NCBI GenBank assembly: GCA_029001845.1
Contig: JAREWP010000009.1
Span: 1 to 38,879 of the forward strand
DNA from: Candidatus Magnetocorallium paracelense
Lineage (GTDB): Bacteria > Nitrospirota > Thermodesulfovibrionia > Thermodesulfovibrionales > Magnetobacteriaceae
Direction: 5' to 3'
Length of the DNA: 38,879 nt
Shown here piece after piece: positions 1 through 38,408 of the stretch; position 1 is the first letter of the stretch, and every line of letters starts with the position of its first letter. The notes beneath the pieces were generated by a model. The model worked only from the letters and a program-made list of their open reading frames with translations, was not told the origin of the DNA and did no database searches. The position numbers and the translations under genes are program-made.

Positions 1-254
1 CCTTCACGATTTCACTATTCCTTTTACCAATAATCAGGCAGAGCAGGATATTCGCATGATGAAAGTACGACAGAAAATCTCAGGTTGCTTTCGTACTTAC
101 AATGGTGCCCTCTATTTTGCCCGTATCCGCAGTTATATCTCTACTGTCAGAAAACACAGCCAGGATATTCTCTCTTCTATTTACTATGCCTTGCTCTCTA
201 ATCCCTTTATACCTTCATATACTTAATGTCACATATTTATACCTGAGTAGTTAC
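1..254 (+). mobile_element. Right end of an IS66-family insertion sequence
   Basis: The transposase frame ends at 226 and the sequence CCTGAGTAGTTAC lies at 242-254. That string resembles the ends of dispersed elements elsewhere in the window (TGTGAACAGTTAC near 16044-16056, GTAACTGTTCACTGAG at 17065-17080). I infer that 254 is close to the right terminus. The left end and any target-site duplication lie outside the window, so the boundary is tentative. Confidence 0.5.
2..226 (+). CDS. IS66-family transposase, C-terminal end (cut by window edge)
   Basis: An open frame runs from the window edge to TAA at 224-226 (74 residues). It reads NNQAEQDIRMMKVRQKISG followed by a GCFRT segment and an IRSYISTVRKH helix. 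This is the conserved C-terminal part of IS66 (TnpC) DDE transposases, where the Glu of the NNxAE motif is the third catalytic residue. Only the end of the protein is in view, so I cannot tell whether the whole element is intact. The downstream end of the IS appears to lie about 28 bp after the stop. Family call is firm; completeness is unknown. Confidence 0.88.
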   Translation, partial: LHDFTIPFTNNQAEQDIRMMKVRQKISGCFRTYNGALYFARIRSYISTVRKHSQDILSSIYYALLSNPFIPSYT

Positions 255-793: not shown

Positions 794-2491
794 ATGAAAA
801 TCAGCCGTTCAACGAATTCCCATATTGTAATAGAAGGCTCTGAAGGAATGGTTACGGCTCACCATCGTGATGCAGCGAGAATAGGAGCAGAGGTTCTTCA
901 AAAGGGAGGAAACGCCGTAGATGCCGCCGTAACATCCGCCTTTGCCATAGGAGTATTGCTGCCTGTCTGGAGTGGTATTGGCGGAGGAGGAGTGATGGTT
1001 GTCCGACTCGATGAAAGAGAGGGCGGTGCTATTAATTTTACTATGCAGGCGCCTGCTCTTGCCGGGGAAGATATGTATGTTCTCGAAGAGAAACGAAAGA
1101 TCAACCCTGTATCGCGACGCTTTTCCTTTCCTGCCGTTCGTGACAACGCCAATACGGAAGGCTACACATCGATTGCAACACCAGGTGCATTGGCCGGTCT
1201 TTGTAAGGCTCTTGAAAAATGGGGCACTATCGATTTGGACCAGGCCCTGCAGCCGGCGATCGAATTGGCCGAAAAGGGCCACCTTGTAGGTTCCACATTC
1301 GTTTTGGAGTTACTCGATTACTCCGATGTGCTTACAAAGCACGAGCTTAGCGCCAAACTCTTTTTTCCTGACAATATGCCCTTAAAATTGGGCGCCAGAT
1401 TGATACAGGCCGACTATGGAAAGACCCTTAAAAAGATTGCAAAAGAGGGTAAGGAGGTTTTTTATCGAGGTGAAATAGCAGAGTTGATTTGCCATGATAT
1501 AGAGAAAAAGGGAGGTTTCCTCAGATACGAGGACATGGCTCAATATGAACCTGTTGTTTATGACTCTCCGTTATCCATATCTTACCACGGTTTCGATATC
1601 TCTACAGTACCCGGTCCTTGCGGAGGACCTACGGTTTTAGAGATTTTAAATATTTTAAAAAACTTCGATCTCTCATCAATGAAGCCTCAAGACCCCGATT
1701 ACCTGCATATCCTGATCGAGGCCCTCAAATTGTCGGGAGTTGATCGTTTTACTTTTCTTGGTGACTCTGCCATTACCGGCTTTCCAATTGAAGTACTAAC
1801 GACATCGGATTACGGAAAGTCCAGAGCAGAATCGATAAACAGGAATGAAGCGGGACAATTCGAAGCAGGTGACCCATGGAGATTTTCTCATTTGTCAAAA
1901 CCTGAAAATTTCCCTCTCCCCGCCGGTCTTTCGCCGGATAAAGGGACCACCCATATTTCTGTTGTAGACAAACGGCGTAACGCCGTATCTCTGACTCAGA
2001 CAAACCAGGTCTTTTCAGGCGTATTAAATCCCGGAGTAGGCGTTATGATGAATAGCGGAATGGGTTGGTTTTGCCCGATACCGGGAACTGTAAACTCTCC
2101 AAAGCCCCGGGCATGGTGCCTTAACAACATGGCGCCTGTTATCGTATATAAGGACGGTCAGGTCAAGCTGGTGGCAGGCGCATCCGGAGGCAGGCAGATA
2201 TTGTCCGCAATGGCTCAGGTGATTATTAATTATATTAATTTCAATATGCCCTTACAGGCGGCTGTCGAGGCCCCGAGACTCCACGTAGAAACTGACGATC
2301 CGATGATCGATCCCCGTTTTGGAGAAGATGTAACGGAAGAATTGAGACGTCGTTGTCATAATGTTTTCAACGCGCCCGAGGTTTTTCTCCTGTGGCCCTT
2401 TGGTGAACCAAACGGAATTTGCGTGAAAGGACGAAATCTCTTCAGCGGAGTATCCCCCCTTGCAAAACCCGGTCACGGGGCGGGATACTAA
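794..2491 (+). CDS. ggt: Gamma-glutamyltransferase family protein (no signal peptide)
   Basis: A 565-residue Ntn-hydrolase of the GGT family, usual length. The N-terminal part shows the family opening (GMVTAHH, KGGNAVDAAV, IGGGGVMVV). The autoprocessing site is visible as GTTHISVVD, whose Thr would become the N-terminal nucleophile of the small subunit; it is followed by a normal small subunit (NSGMGWF, ASGGRQI). Known members cleave gamma-glutamyl bonds of glutathione and similar compounds or transfer the gamma-glutamyl group. Most bacterial GGTs are exported, but this one starts directly with the mature-like sequence and has no hydrophobic leader, so I infer a cytoplasmic enzyme. It heads a tight same-strand cluster with N-protected ornithine/lysine-type enzymes (next gene 7 bp away), which suggests a metabolic rather than a salvage role. 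The start at 794 has no clear ribosome-binding site. Confidence 0.88.
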   Translation: MKISRSTNSHIVIEGSEGMVTAHHRDAARIGAEVLQKGGNAVDAAVTSAFAIGVLLPVWSGIGGGGVMVVRLDEREGGAINFTMQAPALAGEDMYVLEEKRKINPVSRRFSFPAVRDNANTEGYTSIATPGALAGLCKALEKWGTIDLDQALQPAIELAEKGHLVGSTFVLELLDYSDVLTKHELSAKLFFPDNMPLKLGARLIQADYGKTLKKIAKEGKEVFYRGEIAELICHDIEKKGGFLRYEDMAQYEPVVYDSPLSISYHGFDISTVPGPCGGPTVLEILNILKNFDLSSMKPQDPDYLHILIEALKLSGVDRFTFLGDSAITGFPIEVLTTSDYGKSRAESINRNEAGQFEAGDPWRFSHLSKPENFPLPAGLSPDKGTTHISVVDKRRNAVSLTQTNQVFSGVLNPGVGVMMNSGMGWFCPIPGTVNSPKPRAWCLNNMAPVIVYKDGQVKLVAGASGGRQILSAMAQVIINYINFNMPLQAAVEAPRLHVETDDPMIDPRFGEDVTEELRRRCHNVFNAPEVFLLWPFGEPNGICVKGRNLFSGVSPLAKPGHGAGY

Positions 2492-2498
2492 AATAATT

Positions 2499-3533
2499 AT
2501 GAAAATTATCATAGATAAAATCGCCTCTGTAACGAAACACTGTCAATTACCGTCTGAAGTCGAACTTTCCGAAAAGGTGCTGTCAGCGGAAGGTGCTGTT
2601 TTGTGCGTGCATGTTCTTAACGAAAAGAAGGTATATAACAAACTCGAGCTCGTTACCGGCAGGCTTGCGACAGTGCAAAAGGGTGATATCATTGCCGTGG
2701 CCTTAGGTTCCAGAAGTGCTTTAAAGGGATATGTCGGTTCCGTACCGAAGAGAATCGGGAAAGGCGATATCATACAGCTTTTAAATCTCGGCGGCGTTGC
2801 CGGCGTACTTGAAAGCGCGAATCTTACGGAAGTGGGGCGAGCCTTTGATCTCGAAGTTCTCGGTGCTGTTTTAAGAAATGACAAAATAGTCAATATCAAG
2901 GATTACGCCGTCTATTCTCCTCAGAACGGGCTGGATAATGCAACACCGCTGATTCTCATATCGGGAACATGTATGGATTCCGGTAAAACCACAGTGGCCT
3001 GCGAAATCATAAAATTCGCCAACAGAGCGGGATACAGGGTGCATGCCGCAAAGATGGCCGGCGTTGCCGCCCTGAGAGACACGGAAAATATGTCCGATCA
3101 CGGAGCCAAGCTGACAACCTCTTTTTTGGATGCAGGTCTCCCTTCTACAGTTGGGGCGGAAATCTCGCTGCAATGTACAAAGGGTGCGATTAATTATCTG
3201 TCAAAGGGAAATCCCCATTTTATTATTATAGAGCTCGGTGATGGTATTTATGGCGAATACGGTGTCAGTGCGATCCTTGAAGATCGAGAGATAGGAGAGA
3301 ATATTTTATGCCATATCGGCTGCGCCCACGATCCCGTGGGCGCGCTGGGACTTACGGATTATGGTGAAAAAATCGGCAATCCCTTTCATATAATTTCTGG
3401 TCCGGCTACGGACAACAGCGTGGGGATTAAGTTTATAGAAAAAAATTGCGGCATACCGGGAATTAATGTATTTAACAAGCCGGAAAAATATCTGCCCATT
3501 ATTGAAAAAAGGTTGAAAAATGGAAAAAATTAG
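2499..3533 (+). CDS. DUF1611-like P-loop protein, dethiobiotin-synthetase-like fold
   Basis: The start chosen is the ATG at 2499, 7 bp after the ggt stop, giving 344 residues; an earlier in-frame ATG at 2460 would lie inside ggt. The N-terminal ~140 residues form a glycine-rich alpha/beta region I do not recognise. The C-terminal part opens with a Walker A motif, GTCMDSGKTT (residues 156-165), followed by a KMAGVAALRD segment and an acidic IIELGDGIYGEYG motif near 243-255. This pattern is closest to DUF1611/dethiobiotin-synthetase-like ATPases. One DUF1611 member, DgcN, has been reported as a D-glutamate N-acetyltransferase (recalled knowledge). That makes an amino-protecting role upstream of argC-like genes attractive, but this is inference. 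The gene overlaps the next start by 14 bp, implying translational coupling. Confidence 0.6.
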   Translation: MKIIIDKIASVTKHCQLPSEVELSEKVLSAEGAVLCVHVLNEKKVYNKLELVTGRLATVQKGDIIAVALGSRSALKGYVGSVPKRIGKGDIIQLLNLGGVAGVLESANLTEVGRAFDLEVLGAVLRNDKIVNIKDYAVYSPQNGLDNATPLILISGTCMDSGKTTVACEIIKFANRAGYRVHAAKMAGVAALRDTENMSDHGAKLTTSFLDAGLPSTVGAEISLQCTKGAINYLSKGNPHFIIIELGDGIYGEYGVSAILEDREIGENILCHIGCAHDPVGALGLTDYGEKIGNPFHIISGPATDNSVGIKFIEKNCGIPGINVFNKPEKYLPIIEKRLKNGKN

Positions 3534-4530
3534 AGCCGCCCTTGTAGGCGCCACCGGTTATACGGGAAACGAACTCCTGCGCATATTATTGCCTTCTCGG
3601 GAAGTCGAATTTACGACTCTCACTTCGGAGACTCATCAGGGTAAGAGAATAGCCGATGTCTGCCCTCAGTTGTCCTCCTTTTCTTCTCATACATTGGTTT
3701 CCTTTTCAGAGGAAATTTGGGAAAATAACGACGTTGTTTTTCTTGCTCTGCCCCATGGCGAAGCTCAGGAGAGGATAAAAACGGACAGGCAGCTCCCCAG
3801 GATTATAGATCTTTCAGGCGATTTTCGTTTAAAGAATCTTGAGGAGTTCAGGGAATTTTACGGTTTTGATCACAAGAATCCATCGCTTGTGGATGGCTTT
3901 GTTTATGGTCTTCCCGAGTTGAATCGCGAAGCTATTAAAAAGTCGCGTTTTGTATCCAATCCCGGTTGTTTTGCAAGCGCATCCATTCTGGGACTGATTC
4001 CCCTTACAGAAGGGAATCATATTCTACATGCCTTTATATCGGGATTTACCGGTTCCAGCGGCATAGGCAGACAACCTAAAATCGGCGCTCACCATCCTGT
4101 GAGAAATCACAATATTAAGGCCTATAAAGTAGGCGACCACCAACATCTGCCGGAAATTCAACAGGCTCTGAATTTCAGATCTATTGAATTCGTACCCCAC
4201 TCCGCGCCCTTAACGCGCGGAATTTTTCTCTCAGTTTTTGTAGAGCTGAAAGAAAAATTAAATCCCCGTGACCTTGACAGTATTTATAATGAGAGATATG
4301 ATTCAGAGCCTTTTATTCGAATTCGTAAAAATGTGGAATTAGCCGAAGTTACGGGATCGAACATGTGCGATATATCAGTGAAACTCATATCCTCCAATTA
4401 TGCCCATATAAGCGTTGCACACGATAATCTGGTAAAAGGAGCGGCAGGTACGGCAGTGCAAAATCTGAACATTATGTTTGGAAGAGACGAGACTGCCGAT
4501 CTGGACCATTTGTTACCGCTTTATCCTTAA
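3520..4530 (+). CDS. argC: N-acyl-gamma-glutamyl/aminoadipyl-phosphate reductase (ArgC/LysY type)
   Basis: 336 residues, full family length. An N-terminal Rossmann motif GATGYTGNELLRI (about 10-22) binds NADP. The catalytic Cys is C150 in SNPGCFASAS, and the second catalytic residue is the His in GDHQHLPE (205-212). Family enzymes reduce the acyl phosphate made by ArgB or LysZ to the semialdehyde. The NPGC site is ArgC-like. The GAHHPVRNH stretch near 189-197 and the terminal TGSNMCDIS...DNLVKGAAGTA segment recall LysY of the LysW lysine pathway, so substrate assignment is open. The gene overlaps the preceding one by 14 bp and is followed by the aminotransferase after 14 bp. Confidence 0.88.
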   Translation: MEKIRAALVGATGYTGNELLRILLPSREVEFTTLTSETHQGKRIADVCPQLSSFSSHTLVSFSEEIWENNDVVFLALPHGEAQERIKTDRQLPRIIDLSGDFRLKNLEEFREFYGFDHKNPSLVDGFVYGLPELNREAIKKSRFVSNPGCFASASILGLIPLTEGNHILHAFISGFTGSSGIGRQPKIGAHHPVRNHNIKAYKVGDHQHLPEIQQALNFRSIEFVPHSAPLTRGIFLSVFVELKEKLNPRDLDSIYNERYDSEPFIRIRKNVELAEVTGSNMCDISVKLISSNYAHISVAHDNLVKGAAGTAVQNLNIMFGRDETADLDHLLPLYP

Positions 4531-4544
4531 AAGGGAGTAGATAT

Positions 4545-5699
4545 ATGGATTCGTTAGAAAAGATTGCCGACAAATATCTTATTAAGACCTATGCTCAGTG
4601 GCCGATAACCATTGTTAAAGGTAAGGGGAGTTGGGTATGGGATTCCGATGATAAAAAATATCTCGATTTTTACGGAGGCCATGCCGTCGCCCTGCTCGGA
4701 CACTCTCCCGCTACCGTAGTAAAGGCCATAAACGAACAGGCAGAAAAACTTTTATTCTATTCCAATATCGTTCAAATCGAGCCTGCCATAGAGTTGGCAG
4801 AAAAACTCGCCCAAACACTTCAACCTGAACGGTATCAGCTATACTTTTGCAATCACGGTGCTGAAGCGAACGAAACGGCATTGAAAATAGCGCGTAAGCT
4901 GACAGGCAGAAAACAGATCGTCGCCTTTGAGAATTCCTTTCACGGAAGATCGATGACAGCCCTTGCAGCTACGGGAATTCGCAGTTATCACACTTTTACT
5001 CCCGATTTTCTCGATTACACAACCTTTGTCAAATGGGGAGATATGGAAGGCCTGAAAGAGGCTGTAAACAATAATACAGCCGCCGTTTTAGCGGAGCCGA
5101 TTCAGAGCATAGGCGGCGTAAATACAGCGGATGGGGAGTTTTTCAGGTCATTGGAGAATCTCTGTAATCGACATAAAACCTGTTTAATCTTCGATGAAGT
5201 GCAGACAGGCGTGGGAAGAACGGGAACATGGTGGTATGCAGAGGCATGTCATGTTAAACCCGATATCATCACCACAGCCAAAGGACTTGCCGGCGGTCTG
5301 CCCATAGGCGCTGTTTTAGTGAAAGAGGAGCAGGCAAAGGAGATTAAAACAGGCGATCTCGCCACCACCTTCGGAGGCAATCCCGTTGTATCGGCAGCGG
5401 CCGTGGCTGTCATGGAGACCATTATCGAGAATAACCTCCTTGAACATGTGCAGAGAGAAAGCTTGCGGTTTCAGGAAAGATTAAGAGAAATCCCGGGCGT
5501 AGAAGAAGTCAGGGGCGCAGGTTTTTTATTGGGAATCGAAACAAATGCGCCTGCCGGAGAAGTAACAGGAAAGCTGAGGAGTCGCGGCGTTCTTGCCGGA
5601 ACATCGCTAAAACCGAATACAATGCGTATTTTTCCGCCTCTAAATGCTTCAAGGGAGGAAATCGATTATTTTACAGAAACGCTGGCAGGTGTTTTGTAA
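4545..5699 (+). CDS. argD: Class III aminotransferase, acetylornithine / LysW-lysine type
   Basis: 384 residues, typical of ArgD/LysJ. The PLP-binding features are clear: FCNHGAEANE (101-110), SFHGRSMTALAATG (131-144), LIFDEVQTGVGRTG (214-227, with Asp217) and the Schiff-base Lys246 in TTAKGLAGGLPIGA. It transaminates the N-protected semialdehyde to the protected diamine using glutamate. HG replaces the more usual SG in the NSGAEAN motif, which is a small deviation. A GGGAG-like ribosome site (AAAAGGGAG) precedes the ATG. Position between argC and the kinase-deacylase fusion places it third in the pathway. Whether the product is N-acyl-ornithine or a lysine equivalent cannot be decided from this sequence. 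Confidence 0.9.
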   Translation: MDSLEKIADKYLIKTYAQWPITIVKGKGSWVWDSDDKKYLDFYGGHAVALLGHSPATVVKAINEQAEKLLFYSNIVQIEPAIELAEKLAQTLQPERYQLYFCNHGAEANETALKIARKLTGRKQIVAFENSFHGRSMTALAATGIRSYHTFTPDFLDYTTFVKWGDMEGLKEAVNNNTAAVLAEPIQSIGGVNTADGEFFRSLENLCNRHKTCLIFDEVQTGVGRTGTWWYAEACHVKPDIITTAKGLAGGLPIGAVLVKEEQAKEIKTGDLATTFGGNPVVSAAAVAVMETIIENNLLEHVQRESLRFQERLREIPGVEEVRGAGFLLGIETNAPAGEVTGKLRSRGVLAGTSLKPNTMRIFPPLNASREEIDYFTETLAGVL

Positions 5700-5732
5700 C
5701 TTTTTTTTAAATCGGAAATACTCGGAAAATTT

Positions 5733-7646
5733 ATGGAAGCATTAAAAAAATATTATATAAGAAAGTTTTACGGTAAAGTATTTGTCCTTAAATTCGGAGG
5801 AGAGATCCTTACCAATCCCTCTCGTCTGAACAATATCCTTCTCGATGTAAAGGAGTTGTGGGAAAACGGAATAAAAATCGCCATTGTTTACGGAGGAGGG
5901 CAACAAGCTGACGAACTCACCCGTAAATTGGGAGGAAAGGTTCAGAAGATAGACGGGCGACGCATTACCGGCGAGATCGACCTGGAAGTTATAAAAATGC
6001 TTTATGGCGGTCTTTTGAGTCTGGAACTTTTAGGGGCGATCAGACGGTTGGGCATAAAGGGAGTGCGCGTATCTGCTTTGGACGGAGACTTAATTGTCGC
6101 GAAAAAACGGCCTGTAACTACTATTGATTACGGTTTTGTAGGGGATATTGAAAAGGTTAATCCCGAAATCCTGATTAAGACGATGCGAGACGGTTATATC
6201 CCCGTTATTCCCGCCATAACGGCCGATAAAGATGGTAATGTGCTAAACACAAACGCCGATACGATTGCTACCAACGTAGCAGGCGCCCTGAAAGCGGAGA
6301 AATTGATCTTCTTCTCCAATACAGACGGTGTAATGGCCGAAGGGAAGCTGTTGTCCGTACTTACAACGGAGGAAGCATTACAGTTAATAGACGAGCAAAA
6401 GATCACCGGTGGAATGATTGTAAAGGTAACCAATGCCATGGAGGCCCTTAAAGCAGGCGTGCTGAGAGTACAGATTATTAACGGTATGAGTCCCCATTCG
6501 CTCCTTAAGGAAGTTCTTACCGATAAGGGCGCCGGCACGATGATACTTCAGCCTGTAGAGGAGAAGAGGTATCAAAAGGAGATTCAGGAAGAGTTCAAAC
6601 GTATTTCCACGGTGGAACTCTTACAAGAGCTGGTTTCTATTCCAAGCCCCAGCGGGCAGGAAGAGATGGTCGTTAAATTTCTCCTGAAATATCTGAAACA
6701 GCATTGCAGCCATGTATATATCAGAGATCGAAATATATGGGCGGTAAAGGGCGACGGCAAGAAGGTTTTATTGTTACAGGCCCATATCGATACAGTACCT
6801 GTTGTAAGCGGCTGGCAGGGAAATCCATTTGAACCCCTTGTTTCCGGTAATCGTTTAACCGGTTGCGGGGCAGCTGAGAATAAGGCAAGTGTCGCCGCCT
6901 TTGTTCATGCTTTTTTGGACTTGGAGTGTCCTTCAGACTGTCAGGTCGTACTTGCGCTTACCTGCGAAGAGGAGAGAGGGGATCAGGGTTTACAGCGGCT
7001 GCTATCGGACCTGCCTGTACCGAATGCCGCGATTATTGGCGAACCTACGGGTATGGAGATTCGGACCGGTCACAGAGGAAGAGTGGTCCTTGAAGGAAAT
7101 GTGCATACATCGGGCGGGCATACGGCCTTTGCTCAGCGGGAAGAGAATGCCGTTATTGCGGCAATGGAAGCTGTTAAAAAAATCGAGCAGCTCTCTCTGC
7201 CGGAACATCCTTTAATGGGAAAAGCCGGCTGGCAGGTAAGTTATTTTGAAGCAGGTGTGCCCGAACAGTACAATATCGTACCTAACCATGTGGTTTTTCA
7301 AATAGAAGGTCGCACCGTACCGGGAGTAAAAAACAGCACATTAATAGAAAAGGCGCAAAGTGTTGTGGATTTTCCTTTAAAAGTACTGATTAATCAGGCA
7401 GAGGCGAAAATCGTTTCCCCTGACGAAAAGATTGTAATGGCGGCGAAAAAAGCCCTAAACAGAGAAGAGCTTTGTACTGCCGGAGATTTGACGGATCTAC
7501 ATTGCCTGGAATGCCCGGGCATTATTTTCGGTCCCGAAGGCGGGAACATACACAAAGGAAACGAGTGGGTCAATATCGATTCCATGGAAAAGGTGGAAAA
7601 TATCCTGCCGATGATTATTAAGAATTATTTTACCGCTTGTGATTAG
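5733..7646 (+). CDS. Fusion: N-acetylglutamate/aminoadipate kinase + M20 deacylase
   Basis: 637 residues in one uninterrupted frame. Residues 1-272 are an amino-acid kinase of the ArgB/LysZ family: VLKFGGEI with K20, YGGGQQ (53-58), NTNADTIATNVAGAL (172-186) and a terminal GAGTMI. A ~20-residue charged linker follows. Residues ~290-637 are an M20 metallopeptidase of the ArgE/LysK/DapE family, with AHIDTVP (H351, D353), EEE (412-414), GEPT (E437), the dimer-domain GGHTAF and a final H607. The metal-bridging Asp of the usual GxGAxDxK motif is replaced by E382 in GCGAAENK. The two activities are the second and last steps of an N-protected ornithine/lysine route, so the fusion bundles phosphorylation and deprotection. 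It ends the cluster; no LysW carrier gene is seen in the window. Confidence 0.87.
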   Translation: MEALKKYYIRKFYGKVFVLKFGGEILTNPSRLNNILLDVKELWENGIKIAIVYGGGQQADELTRKLGGKVQKIDGRRITGEIDLEVIKMLYGGLLSLELLGAIRRLGIKGVRVSALDGDLIVAKKRPVTTIDYGFVGDIEKVNPEILIKTMRDGYIPVIPAITADKDGNVLNTNADTIATNVAGALKAEKLIFFSNTDGVMAEGKLLSVLTTEEALQLIDEQKITGGMIVKVTNAMEALKAGVLRVQIINGMSPHSLLKEVLTDKGAGTMILQPVEEKRYQKEIQEEFKRISTVELLQELVSIPSPSGQEEMVVKFLLKYLKQHCSHVYIRDRNIWAVKGDGKKVLLLQAHIDTVPVVSGWQGNPFEPLVSGNRLTGCGAAENKASVAAFVHAFLDLECPSDCQVVLALTCEEERGDQGLQRLLSDLPVPNAAIIGEPTGMEIRTGHRGRVVLEGNVHTSGGHTAFAQREENAVIAAMEAVKKIEQLSLPEHPLMGKAGWQVSYFEAGVPEQYNIVPNHVVFQIEGRTVPGVKNSTLIEKAQSVVDFPLKVLINQAEAKIVSPDEKIVMAAKKALNREELCTAGDLTDLHCLECPGIIFGPEGGNIHKGNEWVNIDSMEKVENILPMIIKNYFTACD

Positions 7647-27501: not shown

Positions 27502-28494
27502 ATGAGTATTCCTAAGATCGCACTATTTTCCGGTAAAAATTTCAGCCAGGTTAATGTCTTACGTGACGTTATTCTGGAGGAGGGTGGCGACCCTGTTGTC
27601 TTTGATATTCAGTTAGGCGGTGAAGCAGCATCGGATATTGTTATTTCTGACAATAAAACAGCATGGAGAGGCGTGGATTTCTCCGATATCATGGCAGTTC
27701 ACATACGATGTACCTCTCCCAATACGTATCCTGCTCTGCCACCGATGCTTAACGATGTTTCATATAACGATCTCAGAACGTCTTATTTGAGAGAACAGAT
27801 TTATCAGTCCGTCACCTTCTGTTTCTTTGACTACCTGGCCTCAAGAGAAAGGCTTGTTATAAATCCGCTGACAACTGCCTATATAGATCACGACTCTAAA
27901 TCTCAATTCTACGAAAAGATGCGTTCTCATGGATTCGACGTTCCTGAGACTTTAACTACCAATGATCCCGATAGAGCCATAAAATTTATAAGCGACAGGG
28001 GAGAGGCTGTTATTAAGCCGGCCATAGGCGTCGGATCGACGAGAGTTGTAACTCCCGAGGGATTGAATCGACCGGAGGAGATTAAGAGCTGTCCCGTAAT
28101 GATTCAAAGCCGTATAGAGGGAAGTACATTAAGGGTTCACATTGTTGGCGATACAGTTGTCCTGGCACTTAAAATTATTTCCGAAGGCGGTGTGGACTCC
28201 AGGACGAACACCAGGCGGTTCGACTACATAGAGCTCCCTGACTCCGAAGAGGAGAAGATCGTCAGGGCTTCGAGAATGCTTGGCCTTCATTTTTCGGCTT
28301 GGGATATCATTGCCACTGACGATGGCAGGCATGTATATCTTGACTGTAATCCCGGTCCTTATATTATGTGGATAGGGCCTGAAAACGTCAGGGCGGTTTA
28401 CAGACAGCTTGCCCTTTATATGCTTACTTATGTAAAAACAGGCTCGATACAAAAGGCGTCGGAGAAGGTAGCGCCTTTCAGGCGTAAAGACTGA
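27502..28494 (+). CDS. RimK-like ATP-grasp ligase
   Basis: 330 residues. The ATP-grasp core runs from about residue 125: a nucleotide-binding GEAVIKPAIGVGSTRVV segment, the central VMIQSRIEGSTLRVHIVGD and the metal-binding end YLDCNPGPYIMW with the expected D-x-N acidic/amide ligands. The N-terminal ~110 residues are a small alpha/beta pre-ATP-grasp domain. Relatives (RimK, LysX, cyanophycin- and peptide-ligase types) join an amino acid or peptide to a carboxylate with ATP. The substrate cannot be named. A GAAAGAG ribosome site precedes the ATG. It lies 104 bp after clpA and is not close to the amino-acid cluster, so any link to it is speculative. Confidence 0.75.
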   Translation: MSIPKIALFSGKNFSQVNVLRDVILEEGGDPVVFDIQLGGEAASDIVISDNKTAWRGVDFSDIMAVHIRCTSPNTYPALPPMLNDVSYNDLRTSYLREQIYQSVTFCFFDYLASRERLVINPLTTAYIDHDSKSQFYEKMRSHGFDVPETLTTNDPDRAIKFISDRGEAVIKPAIGVGSTRVVTPEGLNRPEEIKSCPVMIQSRIEGSTLRVHIVGDTVVLALKIISEGGVDSRTNTRRFDYIELPDSEEEKIVRASRMLGLHFSAWDIIATDDGRHVYLDCNPGPYIMWIGPENVRAVYRQLALYMLTYVKTGSIQKASEKVAPFRRKD

Positions 28495-33566: not shown

Positions 33567-34121
33567 ATGGGTTTTGGTGATTTGTTTCGTTGGAAAAAAA
33601 AGGAAGAGAACTTCGATCCTTTAAGAGACCTTACTCTTTCAAGACTTAAGGCAGGGTATCTCCTGGATTACGATATGAAAACATGGGAGGTAAGGGCTTA
33701 TAATAAGTATGAGTGGGACGGGGAATATACAGAAGAGTGGGAATTAAAGAGCGGCAGTGAGACAATGTTCCTGGAAAAAGAGGAAGACGACGGAGATGCT
33801 GACTGGTCGCTATCGTGGAAAGTGTCAATATCTAAAATCGACAAAAGTGTGGCAGAGCGTATTGCCAGGGATGAAGATCCCCCCGATGAAATCGTTTTTG
33901 AAGGCGAGAAATATTTTATGTCAGAAAGCGGGGCCGGTTACTTCCTGAAAGGCGGTACCGGACTTGGTGAAGGTTTTATCTCGTGGGAATATGAAGATGA
34001 ATCGGGCGAGAAGTTATTGACAATACATCAGTGGGGCGATAACGATTTCGAACTTTCCCGGGGAATATATGCAGAGGAGTATCAATTTACAAATATACTC
34101 CCCGGCGGGGAGTCTCGATAA
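33567..34121 (+). CDS. DUF4178 domain protein
   Basis: 184 residues, no signal peptide. The domain is recognised from DPLRDLTLSRLKAGYLLDYD, MKTWEVRAYNKYEWD, EEWELKSGSETMFLE and the glycine-rich GAGYFLKGGTGL, ending with FELSRGIYAEEYQF. The biochemical role of DUF4178 is unknown. It repeatedly accompanies DUF350 membrane proteins and polyamine aminopropyltransferases in other genomes (recalled context), and does so here as the first gene of the block, after a good promoter and an AAGGA ribosome site. Confidence 0.83.
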   Translation: MGFGDLFRWKKKEENFDPLRDLTLSRLKAGYLLDYDMKTWEVRAYNKYEWDGEYTEEWELKSGSETMFLEKEEDDGDADWSLSWKVSISKIDKSVAERIARDEDPPDEIVFEGEKYFMSESGAGYFLKGGTGLGEGFISWEYEDESGEKLLTIHQWGDNDFELSRGIYAEEYQFTNILPGGESR

Positions 34122-34153
34122 AAAGGGAGTCCTTAAATTACTGCTTTTTTAAT

Positions 34154-34187
34154 TTCTCACACAAAGACACAGAGACGCAAAGTTTTT
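34154..34187. repeat. CACAAAGACACAGAGACGCAA repeat fragment
   Basis: TTCTCACACAAAGACACAGA and the following GACGCAAAGTTTTTG form a fragment of a dispersed repeat. The related TCTCACACAAAGTCACAA recurs at 38420. It sits between two genes of the same operon. Confidence 0.5.
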
Positions 34188-34217
34188 GTTAAGACCCTCT
34201 CTTTCACAGATTTTTAT

Positions 34218-34952
34218 ATGAAGAATTATCGTATTACTAAACTATATCTTCTCTTAATCGTCCTTTTGCTCGCCTTGGCGGGATGCGGCGGGAAGGCCGA
34301 TCCTCTTTCGCAGTTTAAGGACGATCTTGTCAGGTTTCCCGAATACTCGCTTATACTCTTTGATATGAAGGAGGAAGGGAATTTCTTTAAGTCCTTTTTT
34401 CATAAGTATAAGATAACAACAGGGCGGAAAGAGAGAGGTAGGGAAGAGTTGGTTTATGAGTCCGTCGAGACGGACTGGATGGCTGTAGATGAATCCTTTT
34501 ACAGGAAATACGAAAATTATCTGGGCATGTCGATTCTGTCCAAAGACTCTGAAGGCAAAATCTCCGACGCAGCCCATCCTCCCGGTTACCAGTATGTAGG
34601 AGACAGCCGGTACGGCAGGTGGAATCGCGACTCATCGGGCAACTCCTTCTGGGAGTTTTACGGAAAATATATGTTTTTCAGCTCCCTCTTTAATATGGCC
34701 ACAGGGAGCATTTTCAGAAACGATTATAACGACTACCGCTCTTACAGAGACTCGGGAAGACCCTATTACGGGCCGAATAAGGAATACGGAACCTATGGCA
34801 GCAATACGAAAAAGACGAACAGCGATTTTTTCCAAAGAAGAAAGGCAAAGGACCTGTCCAGGAAAAAGAGCTTTGACCAACGGGTTAGCAAAAGAATAGG
34901 CAGATCGAGAACAAGCTCGTTTCGCTCAAGAAGCGGAGGCTTTGGTAAATAG
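34218..34952 (+). CDS. Lipoprotein with Arg/Ser/Gly-rich tail (YgiB/DUF4247-like position)
   Basis: 244 residues. The signal ends in lipobox LALAGC with Cys23. The middle part (FKDDLVRFPEYSLILFDMKE...WMAVDESFYRKYENYLGMS) is not a family I recognise. From ~150 the sequence turns Tyr/Arg/Ser/Gly-rich (NDYRSYRDSGRPYYG) and ends RSRTSSFRSRSGGFGK. A comparable basic Ser/Gly-rich end closing in GFG is seen in YgiB/YjfM (DUF1190) and DUF4247 lipoproteins, which occupy the same place in DUF350 clusters. I infer an analogous envelope role. Starts 96 bp after DUF4178, with no clear ribosome site. Confidence 0.6.
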   Translation: MKNYRITKLYLLLIVLLLALAGCGGKADPLSQFKDDLVRFPEYSLILFDMKEEGNFFKSFFHKYKITTGRKERGREELVYESVETDWMAVDESFYRKYENYLGMSILSKDSEGKISDAAHPPGYQYVGDSRYGRWNRDSSGNSFWEFYGKYMFFSSLFNMATGSIFRNDYNDYRSYRDSGRPYYGPNKEYGTYGSNTKKTNSDFFQRRKAKDLSRKKSFDQRVSKRIGRSRTSSFRSRSGGFGK

Positions 34953-34964
34953 AGGGAATTCGAT

Positions 34965-35810
34965 ATGATATTGGATGATGTAGTTACTTCGATCGTATAT
35001 CTTGCCGCTGTTTTTATTATCTTTATTCTGGCAAAGGTGATTTACGACCTTTTAAACAGAAAATTCAAATTAAACGAGGAACTGCTGGTTAAGGATAATT
35101 TCGCACTGGCCCTGGCCGTAACCGGTTACTATCTGGGAATTGTAATAGCTCTTGGCGGCGCCGTGGTGGGACCAAGCGCCGGTTTGACAGAAGATTTAAT
35201 AGACATATTTTTTTATGGTATCCTCTCTATTGTGATTATGAATATTTCGATTGTGATAAACGACAGGATCATCTTGCATACATTCGACAATAAAAAGGAG
35301 ATTATAGAGGATCGAAATCCCGGTACAGGCGTTGTGGAACTGGGAAATTATGTTGCCGTAGGTCTGATTATTCACGGCGCCGTGTCCGGCGAAGGGGGCA
35401 GCCTTATTACAGCCCTTGTGTTCTGGTCCCTGGGCCTTCTATCTCTGATTATCGCCGGTCTTTTTTATAATTTCATTTTACCATACAACTTACACGATGA
35501 AATCGAGAAAGATAACACAGCCGTTGGTATCGCCTTTTCAGGCGTGCTTATCGGTATGGGAAACGTCGTCAGAGCGGCGGTAAGCGGTGATTTTCATTCC
35601 TGGGGCGAAAATCTCACGTATTTTTTTGTAATTGTAATTCTTGGTCTTGCTCTCCTGCCTCTCATCAGATGGCTTACAGATAAGACACTCCTTCCCGGCG
35701 AATGTCTGACCAAAGAGCTGGTCAGTCAGGAACATCCCAATAAAGGCGCCGCGCTGATCGAAGCGTTTTCTTATGTGGCCTCGTCTTTTTTGATAGGCTG
35801 GTGTTTATAA
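34965..35810 (+). CDS. DUF350 (YjfL/UPF0719-type) membrane protein, duplicated domain
   Basis: 281 residues forming two repeats of the DUF350 unit. Each has the pattern of a charged loop followed by NFALALAVTGYYLGIVIAL (first, ~79-97 region) or NTAVGIAFSGVLIGMGNVVR (second), giving about eight membrane segments. DUF350 proteins are inner-membrane proteins of unknown biochemistry, found with PspA-like proteins and glutathionylspermidine or spermidine synthases. An AGAGGGA ribosome site precedes the ATG. It is 12 bp after the lipoprotein and 19 bp before the spermidine synthase. Confidence 0.86.
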   Translation: MILDDVVTSIVYLAAVFIIFILAKVIYDLLNRKFKLNEELLVKDNFALALAVTGYYLGIVIALGGAVVGPSAGLTEDLIDIFFYGILSIVIMNISIVINDRIILHTFDNKKEIIEDRNPGTGVVELGNYVAVGLIIHGAVSGEGGSLITALVFWSLGLLSLIIAGLFYNFILPYNLHDEIEKDNTAVGIAFSGVLIGMGNVVRAAVSGDFHSWGENLTYFFVIVILGLALLPLIRWLTDKTLLPGECLTKELVSQEHPNKGAALIEAFSYVASSFLIGWCL

Positions 35811-35829
35811 TCCTTCCCTTCCGCCTGAA

Positions 35830-37407
35830 ATGGAGTTAGCCGGCAGAAAAAAATTCGCTTCCACCCTTGACAGAGAGAAAAGCCTGCTCCTTAAATTCTG
35901 CGTATTTGCAACAGGGCTTTCAGGCATCGTAACAGAATATGTCCTGTCCACGCTGGCAAGTTATCTGATCGGTAATTCCGTTCTTCAATGGACTATCGTA
36001 ATATCTTTAATGCTCTTTGCCATGGGAGTGGGGAGCCGATTGAGCAAATATATTACCAACCATCTGCTGGAATTTTTCATACTTACGGAATTCGTAATTT
36101 CATTTCTATGCGCCGTATCGGCAGGGGCAAGCTTTTTGTCGTCTATTTATACCGTACATGTGGGATTTATCATTTATACCTTCTCCTTTACCATAGGACT
36201 GCTTATCGGCTTTGAGATACCGCTTATTACCAGAATCAACAGCTACTACGAGGAACTCCGAACCAATATTGCTTCGGTTTTGGAAAAGGACTATTTCGGC
36301 GCTCTTGCCGGCGGTGTTTTATTTGCCTTTTTCGCCCTTCCCCATTTGGGACTTACATATACTCCCATAGCCCTTGGTACGATAAATTTTACAGTGGCTT
36401 CCGTTCTTCTGTTCAGATTAAGGAGAAGTATACCCTATGTAAGATTGTTATACCCGAACTTCGCCTTTGTGCTTGTATCTATCATATTGCTCTTTATTTA
36501 TATTAAACCCATTATTCTCTATGGAGAGCAGAAGAAATACAAGGATACGATTATTTTTGAAAAACAGACAAAATATCAGAAAATTGTGCTGACAAGATGG
36601 AAAGATGATATTTGGCTCTATATTAACGGCAACGAGCAGTTCAGCAGCTTTGACGAAGAGAAGTACCATGAACCCCTTGTACACCCGGCCATGTCGCTTC
36701 TCGGGCAGAGAAATAATATCCTCGTTCTTGGCGGCGGAGACGGTCTTGCTCTCAGGGAGATTTTGAAATACAATGATGTGAAAAAAGTAGTGCTTGTTGA
36801 CATTGATCCGCAAATGACGGCGCTTGCAGGGGAGCATCCCGCATTGACCGGGCTAAACGGAGATTCCCTGAACAACCCGAAAGTAGAGGTGATTCATATG
36901 GATGCTTTTAAGTACCTCTCCAAAGTCAAAGATTATTATAACGTCATATTCGCAGACCTGCCCGATCCAAATAACATGGAATTGAATCTTCTCTATTCAC
37001 TGGAATTTTATAAGCTCGCTTTGAGACAACTTTCACGTGGCGGAGTTTTTGTAACTCAGGCCACGAGCCCCGTGTATTCTAAAAAGGCCTTTCTAAGTAT
37101 AATGAAAACCATGCAGGAGGCGGGTTTTACGGTACTGCCCTATCGTAACAGTATTCCTACCATGGGCGAGACAGGATGGATGCTTGGCGTTAAGCCAGGA
37201 CACATAACCGAGGAAGGGCTTAAGAGCATAATGGAAGGCATGGCATTCGATACAGTGGAAACGAGATTTTTAAACAGAGAGGCAATGATCTCTATGGTAA
37301 ATTTCGGTAAGAACGTATTTGAAGAAATAGATCGTATTGAGATAAACTCAAGGATTAATCCCGTGCTTTTCGGGTATTATAGAGAGGGTATGTGGGATTT
37401 CTACTGA
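35830..37407 (+). CDS. Membrane-anchored spermidine synthase (polyamine aminopropyltransferase)
   Basis: 525 residues. The N-terminal ~220 residues hold seven or so membrane helices (GLSGIVTEYVLSTLASYLIG onward). The C-terminal ~270 are a spermidine-synthase domain: ILVLGGGDGLALREILK near 297-313 binds decarboxylated SAM, VVLVDIDPQMTALA follows, and IFADLPDPNN near 375-384 carries the catalytic Asp region. Soluble SpeE makes spermidine from putrescine; this fused form occurs in DUF350-type clusters and its true product is not established. No speD lies in the window, so decarboxylated SAM would have to come from elsewhere. The stop overlaps the next gene's start by 16 bp. Confidence 0.88.
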   Translation: MELAGRKKFASTLDREKSLLLKFCVFATGLSGIVTEYVLSTLASYLIGNSVLQWTIVISLMLFAMGVGSRLSKYITNHLLEFFILTEFVISFLCAVSAGASFLSSIYTVHVGFIIYTFSFTIGLLIGFEIPLITRINSYYEELRTNIASVLEKDYFGALAGGVLFAFFALPHLGLTYTPIALGTINFTVASVLLFRLRRSIPYVRLLYPNFAFVLVSIILLFIYIKPIILYGEQKKYKDTIIFEKQTKYQKIVLTRWKDDIWLYINGNEQFSSFDEEKYHEPLVHPAMSLLGQRNNILVLGGGDGLALREILKYNDVKKVVLVDIDPQMTALAGEHPALTGLNGDSLNNPKVEVIHMDAFKYLSKVKDYYNVIFADLPDPNNMELNLLYSLEFYKLALRQLSRGGVFVTQATSPVYSKKAFLSIMKTMQEAGFTVLPYRNSIPTMGETGWMLGVKPGHITEEGLKSIMEGMAFDTVETRFLNREAMISMVNFGKNVFEEIDRIEINSRINPVLFGYYREGMWDFY

Positions 37408-38408
37408 AACTCTACCGCTTTCTCAGGCGGGAGGGATTTGTAAGGCTTTTAATCGTAGTCCTTTTTTTGATTCTTTTCGGCGCAACAGGGGCAAGCTATT
37501 TCGAAAAGGACTTATCGCCTTTAAATGCCCTGTGGTGGACACTGGTAACTCTCACTACAGTTGGTTACGGAGATATCTCTCCCATGACCTGGGGCGGGAG
37601 AATTATAGGTATTGTCCTGATGTTTTTCGGCATCGGGGTTTTAGGGTTATTCACGGCTACCATAGCAGGTGTGTTTGTGGAAAAAAAATTCAAAGAGGAA
37701 AAAGGTTTGATTGAGGTGAAGGCAAAAGGCCATTTTATCATTTGCGGATGGAATCACAGGGCCGAGGAGATTGTTAATGAGTTGCGCTCAAACCCTGATG
37801 CAACCGATAAAACTATCGTTCTGGTCGCAGATATCCCGTCCAAACCGATTGAAACAGAGGATTTTCATTTTATCCAGGGAGAAGTAACCGTCGAAAATTT
37901 GAGGAAGGCCAATATCAAAGAGGGGGGAACGGTCATTATACTTCTCGACGACAAGCTGGACGTGTACGCCAGAGATGCAAAGGCCGTTCTCAATACTCTG
38001 ACTGTGGAATCGGAAAATCCCGATGTCTATACATGCGTGGAACTTGTAAACTCCAATAATATCGATCACTGTATTCGCGCCAGGGCCGACGAAATTATTG
38101 TGGGAGAAGAGTACAGCGGTAAACTCCTTTGTCAGGCAGCGGTTAACCACGGTATCACGACGGTTATTTCGGAAATTCTAAGCAGGAAGTATGGAAACGA
38201 TCTATATAAGATAACACTCCCCGATTCGTATGAAGGGATGTCTTTTGTAGAGGTTCTTTCTCTTATGAAACAGGAGTCTAACTGCCTGATAGTCGCCATA
38301 CAGTCATTGTCGGGAGACGTTTTTCAAACAAATCCTTCGGCCGATTATGTCGTTAAAAAAGGAGACAGAGCCGTGGTGATATCCGATAAAAGACCAAAGG
38401 CTTTCTGA
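37392..38408 (+). CDS. Two-TM potassium channel with RCK (TrkA-N) domain
   Basis: 338 residues with a GTG start at 37392, overlapping the spermidine synthase stop by 16 bp, so translation is probably coupled. One membrane helix (18-35), the selectivity filter TVGYGD (56-61) and a second helix (about 70-92) form the pore. The cytosolic part (~105-330) is an RCK module: Rossmann-like GHFIICGWNHRAEEIVNEL, then a TrkA-C-like tail (DVFQTNPSADYVVKKGDRAVVIS). It conducts K+ under ligand control. In this operon it may couple membrane potential or K+ status to polyamine chemistry; that link is inference. Confidence 0.92.
   Translation: MGFLLKLYRFLRREGFVRLLIVVLFLILFGATGASYFEKDLSPLNALWWTLVTLTTVGYGDISPMTWGGRIIGIVLMFFGIGVLGLFTATIAGVFVEKKFKEEKGLIEVKAKGHFIICGWNHRAEEIVNELRSNPDATDKTIVLVADIPSKPIETEDFHFIQGEVTVENLRKANIKEGGTVIILLDDKLDVYARDAKAVLNTLTVESENPDVYTCVELVNSNNIDHCIRARADEIIVGEEYSGKLLCQAAVNHGITTVISEILSRKYGNDLYKITLPDSYEGMSFVEVLSLMKQESNCLIVAIQSLSGDVFQTNPSADYVVKKGDRAVVISDKRPKAF

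Follow-up and report, generated by a model that had tools for sequence, protein, structure and literature searches.

A P-loop protein as the probable glutamate-acylating entry enzyme of a horizontally acquired arginine operon in Candidatus Magnetocorallium paracelense

We analysed a 38,879-nucleotide stretch of DNA from the Nitrospirota bacterium Candidatus Magnetocorallium paracelense (contig JAREWP010000009.1; hereafter the window), which is one whole contig of a 6.0-Mb genome that is 99.6% complete. Our subject is a cluster of five genes at positions 794-7646 of the window, all on the + strand and separated by successive spacings of 7, -14, 14 and 33 bp, and in particular its second gene, which encodes a P-loop protein:

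794..2491, +, gamma-glutamyltransferase (GGT; gene ggt), TIGR00066 393.7 bits versus a cut-off of 357.85
2499..3533, +, P-loop protein of 344 amino acids; start taken at ATG 2499, the mechanical start being an upstream TTG at 2460
3520..4530, +, argC, N-acyl-gamma-glutamyl-phosphate reductase, TIGR01850 338 bits versus a cut-off of 233.6
4545..5699, +, argD, class-III N-acylornithine aminotransferase, TIGR00707 392 bits, just under the cut-off of 410
5733..7646, +, argB::argE fusion, with a kinase at about residues 1-285 and an M20 deacylase at about residues 288-637

This layout agrees with a preliminary description made from the letters of the window, as does the lack of a synthase, LysX or LysW within the five genes. 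The ArgB domain of the fusion scores 195.4 bits on TIGR00761 (cut-off 151.3). Its C-terminal half belongs to the M20 family; the top model for this part is succinyl-diaminopimelate desuccinylase, at 132 bits and below the cut-off of 284, and it also matches PDB 3ct9, which we take to be a BT3549-type enzyme of Bacteroides.

The cluster supplies the only ArgB and the only ArgC over cut-off in the genome, the next ArgC match reaching 68 bits, below cut-off. Ornithine carbamoyltransferase (OTC), ArgG and ArgH are encoded elsewhere, and a second argD-like gene (L143:3573-4772) precedes argF, the OTC gene. Together with argD (just under its cut-off) and the deacylase, these complete the set from argB to argH, and, judged by its genes, the organism seems capable of arginine synthesis. 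What we could not find in this genome was any of three known entry enzymes: ArgJ (TIGR00120) had no match anywhere, no ArgA exceeded its cut-off, and no ArgX-type GNAT was found.

Relatives of the organism are organized differently. All 20 that we searched encode a canonical ArgC (413-465 bits) and an ArgJ (419-461 bits), and in one of them, G024 (locus L053), argC and argJ come directly behind rpsI. After rpsI in the genome of the window there are instead about 0.9 kb without an open reading frame (ORF) and then a short IS110-type ORF, with no argC-argJ. In a tree of ArgC sequences, the window protein clusters with ArgCs from operons of Peribacteria and Micavibrio-type bacteria (99/95), its exact placement being unsure because of a long branch, and the 20 relatives form a separate clade (100/100). 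The ArgC tree thus indicates that the cluster is a horizontal acquisition. Because OTC, ArgG and ArgH lie elsewhere in the genome, only the genes for protected intermediates seem to have been exchanged. The contig edge upstream of the cluster (window positions 2-226) retains a C-terminal fragment of an IS66-type transposase, as would suit a transferred cluster. Among 396 genomes of the phylum, homologues of the P-loop gene were paralogues only, several of them beside ABC transporters and none with arg genes. Such paralogues directly precede ABC transporter genes in Nitrospirota and on roseobacter plasmids (L010:3535-4638, L013:3433-4476, L041:7956-9053 and L043:7881-8933). The unusual ArgBs of genomes G002 and G008 were considered and rejected, as they are stand-alone and have no adjoining P-loop gene.

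We scanned one genome per species (84,980 species) for relatives of the P-loop protein, obtained 204, and kept 80, whose loci were fetched. Fifty-six of these are near-full-length orthologues with 36-56% identity; the next group drops to about 25-36% identity with partial matches. The orthologues occur in Peribacteria/Peregrinibacteria, Micavibrio-type and other Alphaproteobacteria, Planctomycetota, Acidobacteria, other Proteobacteria and a Thermoplasmata archaeon; a scan of IMG/VR gave no match. In 53 of the 56 loci argC lies at most 139 bp downstream on the same strand, which argues that the arrangement is not due to chance, and two of the three remaining loci stop at a contig edge. These operons also hold argG, a transcarbamylase, argD, argB and argH, many with an M20 or AstE-like deacylase. 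The Thermoplasmata locus (L109) shows a compact order: argG, P-loop, argC, argD, transcarbamylase, argB, M20, argH. The preliminary description had named, as a check, a search for conservation of ggt, a DUF1611-like gene and argC/argD as neighbours. The pairing of the P-loop gene with argC recurs; ggt drops out, as tblastn gave no match to it in any of the 80 loci, the 56 P-loop arg loci among them. Two Micavibrio-type arg loci have a dimethylargininase/arginine-dihydrolase-like gene between argD and OTC (L060:14900-15973 and L067:12277-13371). A full-text literature search of partial coverage, for DUF1611 and for missing genes for N-acetylglutamate synthase (NAGS), returned no paper on this P-loop family.

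Known entry enzymes are largely missing from genomes with the P-loop gene. ArgJ was not found in 48 of the 49 P-loop genomes searched. ArgA, for which we required a kinase-like plus a GNAT domain over the TIGR01890 cut-off, was absent from all 50, the genome of the window included; the strong matches to the ArgA profile span only its positions 2-293, the kinase domain, and correspond to the operon's own ArgB. Our query for ArgX was a GNAT that we assume to be of this type; it comes from an arg operon of Flavobacterium, where it lies beside argG-argC-argD and next to the slot filled here by the P-loop gene. It was matched in three of 50 genomes. Altogether, 46 of the 50 genomes lack all three of ArgJ, ArgA and ArgX, in genome-wide searches that did not extend to the S-NAGS, O-NAGS, C-NAGS and LysX/LysW types. 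Since many of the 50 are metagenome assemblies whose completeness is unknown, a single absence counts for little; the overall pattern does not share this weakness. This pattern, together with the operon position, is our main argument that the P-loop protein carries out the first step. We infer that it N-acylates L-glutamate and so provides the missing first step of a horizontally acquired arginine (ornithine) operon, a conclusion that we consider probable. The preliminary description had likewise suggested that this protein installs the protecting group, and the suggestion gains support from the conservation of the gene in arg operons across phyla without known entry enzymes and from a predicted structure that resembles, among others, DgcN. 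The genome-wide search for argA and argJ found neither, and leaves the suggestion standing for the P-loop gene.

By sequence, the P-loop protein is weakly DUF1611-like and reaches no Pfam cut-off (CbiA, 19.3 bits versus 25.4). It matched no GNAT or ArgJ family; DUF1611 was matched in 14 of 39 orthologues, at E<0.01 only. A PDB profile search with the 39 orthologues found no match, which makes the link to DUF1611 and DgcN a structural one only. The protein carries a Walker A motif (G-T-C-M-D-S-G-K-T-T) and an E-x-G-D-G motif (from E245 onward), and G162, K163, T164, K185, R193, D194, D200, E245, G247, D248 and G249 are invariant in the 39 aligned orthologues. An AlphaFold model built with this alignment has a mean predicted local distance difference test (pLDDT) score of 95.2; the N-terminal domain folded alone without alignment reached a pLDDT of 41, and that model was not used. 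In the former model, the C-terminal domain (about residues 147-343) is predicted to be a SIMIBI/BioD-type P-loop domain that CTP synthase, BioD and DUF1611 proteins match about equally (Z 15-17), the last being 2g0t (Z 16.9), DgcN (7xrj, Z 15.7) and 2obn (Z 15.5); a protein's absence from this list does not speak against its being related. K185 aligns with the BioD lysine that follows the second strand. The PDB title of 7xrj calls DgcN an N-acetyltransferase, and this DUF1611 protein reportedly N-acetylates D-glutamate. The modelled fold and the conserved residues would fit CoA-dependent and ATP-dependent acylation of glutamate alike.

Several observations weigh against the P-loop protein as entry enzyme. 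One of the 49 genomes has ArgJ, and three Planctomycetota encode an ArgX-type GNAT as well, two of them near the same operon. Orthologue L086 is a true exception in which argC does not adjoin the P-loop gene. The protein misses the gathering score of Pfam PF07755 (DUF1611), with 13 bits versus 25, and BioD and CTP synthase match its model as well as DgcN does. Finally, the genome of the window and the Micavibrio-type loci have an ordinary OTC, to which the signature test described below does not apply, and the case for a succinyl group is indirect there.

In two of the Planctomycetota loci (L101:6562-7811 and L105:6568-7838), a succinyl-type transcarbamylase is followed by a GNAT of the ArgX type and by a second M20 gene. 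The GNAT lies about 3 kb upstream of argG-P-loop-argC, and the entry enzymes there may be redundant.

We next consider which group protects the amino acid. Knotted transcarbamylases occur in 17 loci (3 Peribacteria/Peregrinibacteria, 9 Planctomycetota, 3 Proteobacteria, 1 Thermoplasmata and 1 further bacterium), where the match by name is to N-acetylornithine carbamoyltransferase (AOTCase). Residues 92, 185 and 302 (Xanthomonas numbering) tell acetyl-specific from succinyl-specific enzymes (PMC4581275), the succinyl rule being A/S/P/V/Q, P and V/I/E, respectively. These sites are E, N and K in the Xanthomonas AOTCase and S, P and I in the Flavobacterium enzyme. All 17 knotted enzymes show the N-succinylornithine signature (A/S/V/Q, P, V/I/E), which favours succinyl over acetyl, at least in those lineages. 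Carbamoyltransferase sequence has been used in the same way for Bacteroidetes (PMC7311316). In addition, Peribacteria operons contain a gene of the succinylglutamate desuccinylase/aspartoacylase family. Protection by succinyl is therefore probable where a homologous operon carries a knotted transcarbamylase. For the window and the Micavibrio-type genomes, whose OTC is ordinary, the group can be assigned from homology only, and succinyl is a first guess for the window cluster. This pointer to succinyl instead of acetyl is new relative to the preliminary description.

These same data bear on the strongest alternative, namely that the P-loop protein is a DgcN-like N-acetyltransferase that acts on L- instead of D-glutamate, a NAGS non-homologous to known ones within an ordinary acetylated pathway. 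The presence of DgcN among the structural matches, the use of ordinary OTC after deacylation in the window and Micavibrio-type operons, and the scores of ArgB and ArgC over the cut-offs of models named for acetylated substrates all speak for it. The uniform succinyl signatures, the Peribacteria deacylase and the top model of the window's M20 part, albeit below its cut-off, speak against it. On balance we regard an acetylated pathway as possible, if doubtful.

A second alternative is that the P-loop protein is an accessory factor (a regulator, chaperone or nucleotide-dependent activator) and that an unrecognised GNAT elsewhere makes N-acylglutamate. SIMIBI NTPases do include chaperone-type proteins such as HypB, and in the three Planctomycetota the P-loop gene coexists with an ArgX-type GNAT. 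An accessory role is nevertheless unlikely given the 46 genomes without ArgJ, ArgA and ArgX, the spread of the P-loop gene together with the operon over several phyla and to an archaeon, and its gain in the genome of the window along with the protected-segment genes while the native argJ was lost.

The preliminary description had suggested that GGT could make, move or remove a gamma-glutamyl group. The protein has no obvious signal peptide by eye, retains the processing Thr motif (TTH), and aligns to GGT 4y23 through the Thr-His segment. In the corresponding alternative, the protecting group is gamma-glutamyl or a larger carboxylated acyl attached by ATP-dependent ligation, with GGT deprotecting or recycling. 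This would suit the BioD/CTP-synthase-type P-loop domain, which has the fold of amidoligases and the aligned BioD lysine, as well as the position of ggt 7 bp upstream of the P-loop gene; the transcarbamylase selector residues might admit a bulkier acyl, and a peptidase C26 gene follows argB in locus L089. Against this, GGT is unmatched in the 56 homologous operons, many of which have M20 or AstE-type deacylases, and the C26 gene turned up in a single locus only, in a genome with ArgJ. We hold gamma-glutamyl protection to be very improbable; GGT probably has no part in the mechanism and looks like a lineage-specific passenger. The C26 gene itself (L089:15556-16287) is gamma-glutamyl-GABA hydrolase-like, and its operon shows no argE.

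The lysine reading offered in the preliminary description is not supported, as the operons hold argG, argH and ornithine-type transcarbamylases. A LysW-dependent lysine/ornithine pathway was considered and is disfavoured: the LysZ models score 103 versus cut-offs of 194-223, LysJ 279 versus 700 and LysK 97 versus 363, in a comparison that did not include a genome-wide search for LysX/LysW.

Lastly, the P-loop-argC association might be incidental, and instead of arginine the cluster might make ornithine, or a diamine related to it, destined for some special product. A distant relative (33% identity) could suggest this, as it lies on a Priestia plasmid in a cluster whose genes are annotated as ornithine carbamoyltransferase, ATP-grasp, M20 and phosphoenolpyruvate mutase. 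We consider this reading highly implausible: the genome's only ArgB and ArgC over cut-off lie in the window cluster, the genome has OTC, ArgG and ArgH, and the homologous loci contain argG and argH and are arg operons. The Priestia megaterium cluster (L040:4727-13415) lies between IS6 transposases and includes OTC-like, two ATP-grasp, split thiamine pyrophosphate enzyme, M20, flavin oxidoreductase and phosphoenolpyruvate mutase-type genes, and it looks like a phosphonate product cluster.

In the pathway that we propose, the acquired operon would have taken the place of the native argB, argC and argJ. The P-loop protein would attach an acyl protecting group to L-glutamate at its alpha-amino position; ArgB would phosphorylate, ArgC reduce and ArgD transaminate the protected intermediate; and the M20 half of the fusion would release ornithine for conversion to arginine by the OTC, ArgG and ArgH that the genome encodes elsewhere. 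What the P-loop protein does, which acyl donor it uses and which group it attaches are the conjectural parts of this scheme, drawn from gene content, conservation and the observed absence of ArgJ, ArgA and ArgX. More broadly, and only tentatively, this BioD/CTP-synthase-fold P-loop family may be the L-glutamate N-succinyltransferase, or an ATP-dependent N-succinyl ligase, of a widespread succinylated arginine pathway, unrelated to GNAT and ArgJ enzymes; it may have passed between bacterial phyla and reached an archaeon, and could take over from the acetyl pathway as a whole.

Elsewhere in the window, a RimK-like ATP-grasp ligase gene (27502-28494) lies downstream of a ClpA/ClpB-type ATPase gene; its nearest models are ribosomal-peptide maturases, and the LysX model is unmatched at E<=0.001. 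Positions 33567-38408 hold, in a row on one strand, DUF4178, lipoprotein-like, DUF350, spermidine-synthase-like membrane protein and ion-channel/TrkA genes.

For entire phyla, the prediction of metabolism from genomes has had a gap at the first, committed step of arginine synthesis; such gaps have been described, and one was filled in Bacteroidetes (PMC7311316). If our proposal is true, many predicted arginine auxotrophs (Peribacteria, Micavibrio-type Alphaproteobacteria, Planctomycetota and others) would become prototrophs, DUF1611-like proteins would have a second role, and a protecting group could change by the swap of a whole module. The question of how glutamate is acylated in these phyla becomes testable with one gene.

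Like the DUF1611 proteins (DgcN, 7xrj; 2g0t and 2obn; Z 15.5-16.9), the window P-loop protein is predicted to combine an N-terminal domain with a C-terminal SIMIBI-type P-loop domain, and glutamate would be a substrate of both, going by the PDB title and the reported activity of DgcN. Unlike them, it sits in arg operons, and it is 11-14% identical to them in structural alignments. With BioD and the amidoligase domain of CTP synthase it shares the predicted C-terminal fold and the aligned lysine, and it differs in an extra N-terminal domain of about 145 residues and in operon context. Its proposed place in the pathway is that of the known N-acetylglutamate synthases (ArgA, ArgJ, S-NAGS, O-NAGS, H-NAGS, NAGS/K and C-NAGS; PMC4490483), whose GNAT and ArgJ families it does not match and of which ArgJ and ArgA are absent from the genome of the window. 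The succinylated pathway of Bacteroidetes (BT3761-type ArgX, N-succinylornithine carbamoyltransferase and BT3549; PMC7311316) has a GNAT as entry enzyme where we find an unrelated P-loop protein, and the genome of the window differs from it further in having an ordinary OTC and an ArgB::ArgE fusion. Many homologous loci nevertheless share with that pathway argG, argC, argD, a succinyl-type knotted transcarbamylase, argB and M20, and in both the entry gene, known there and proposed here, lies beside argG/argC.

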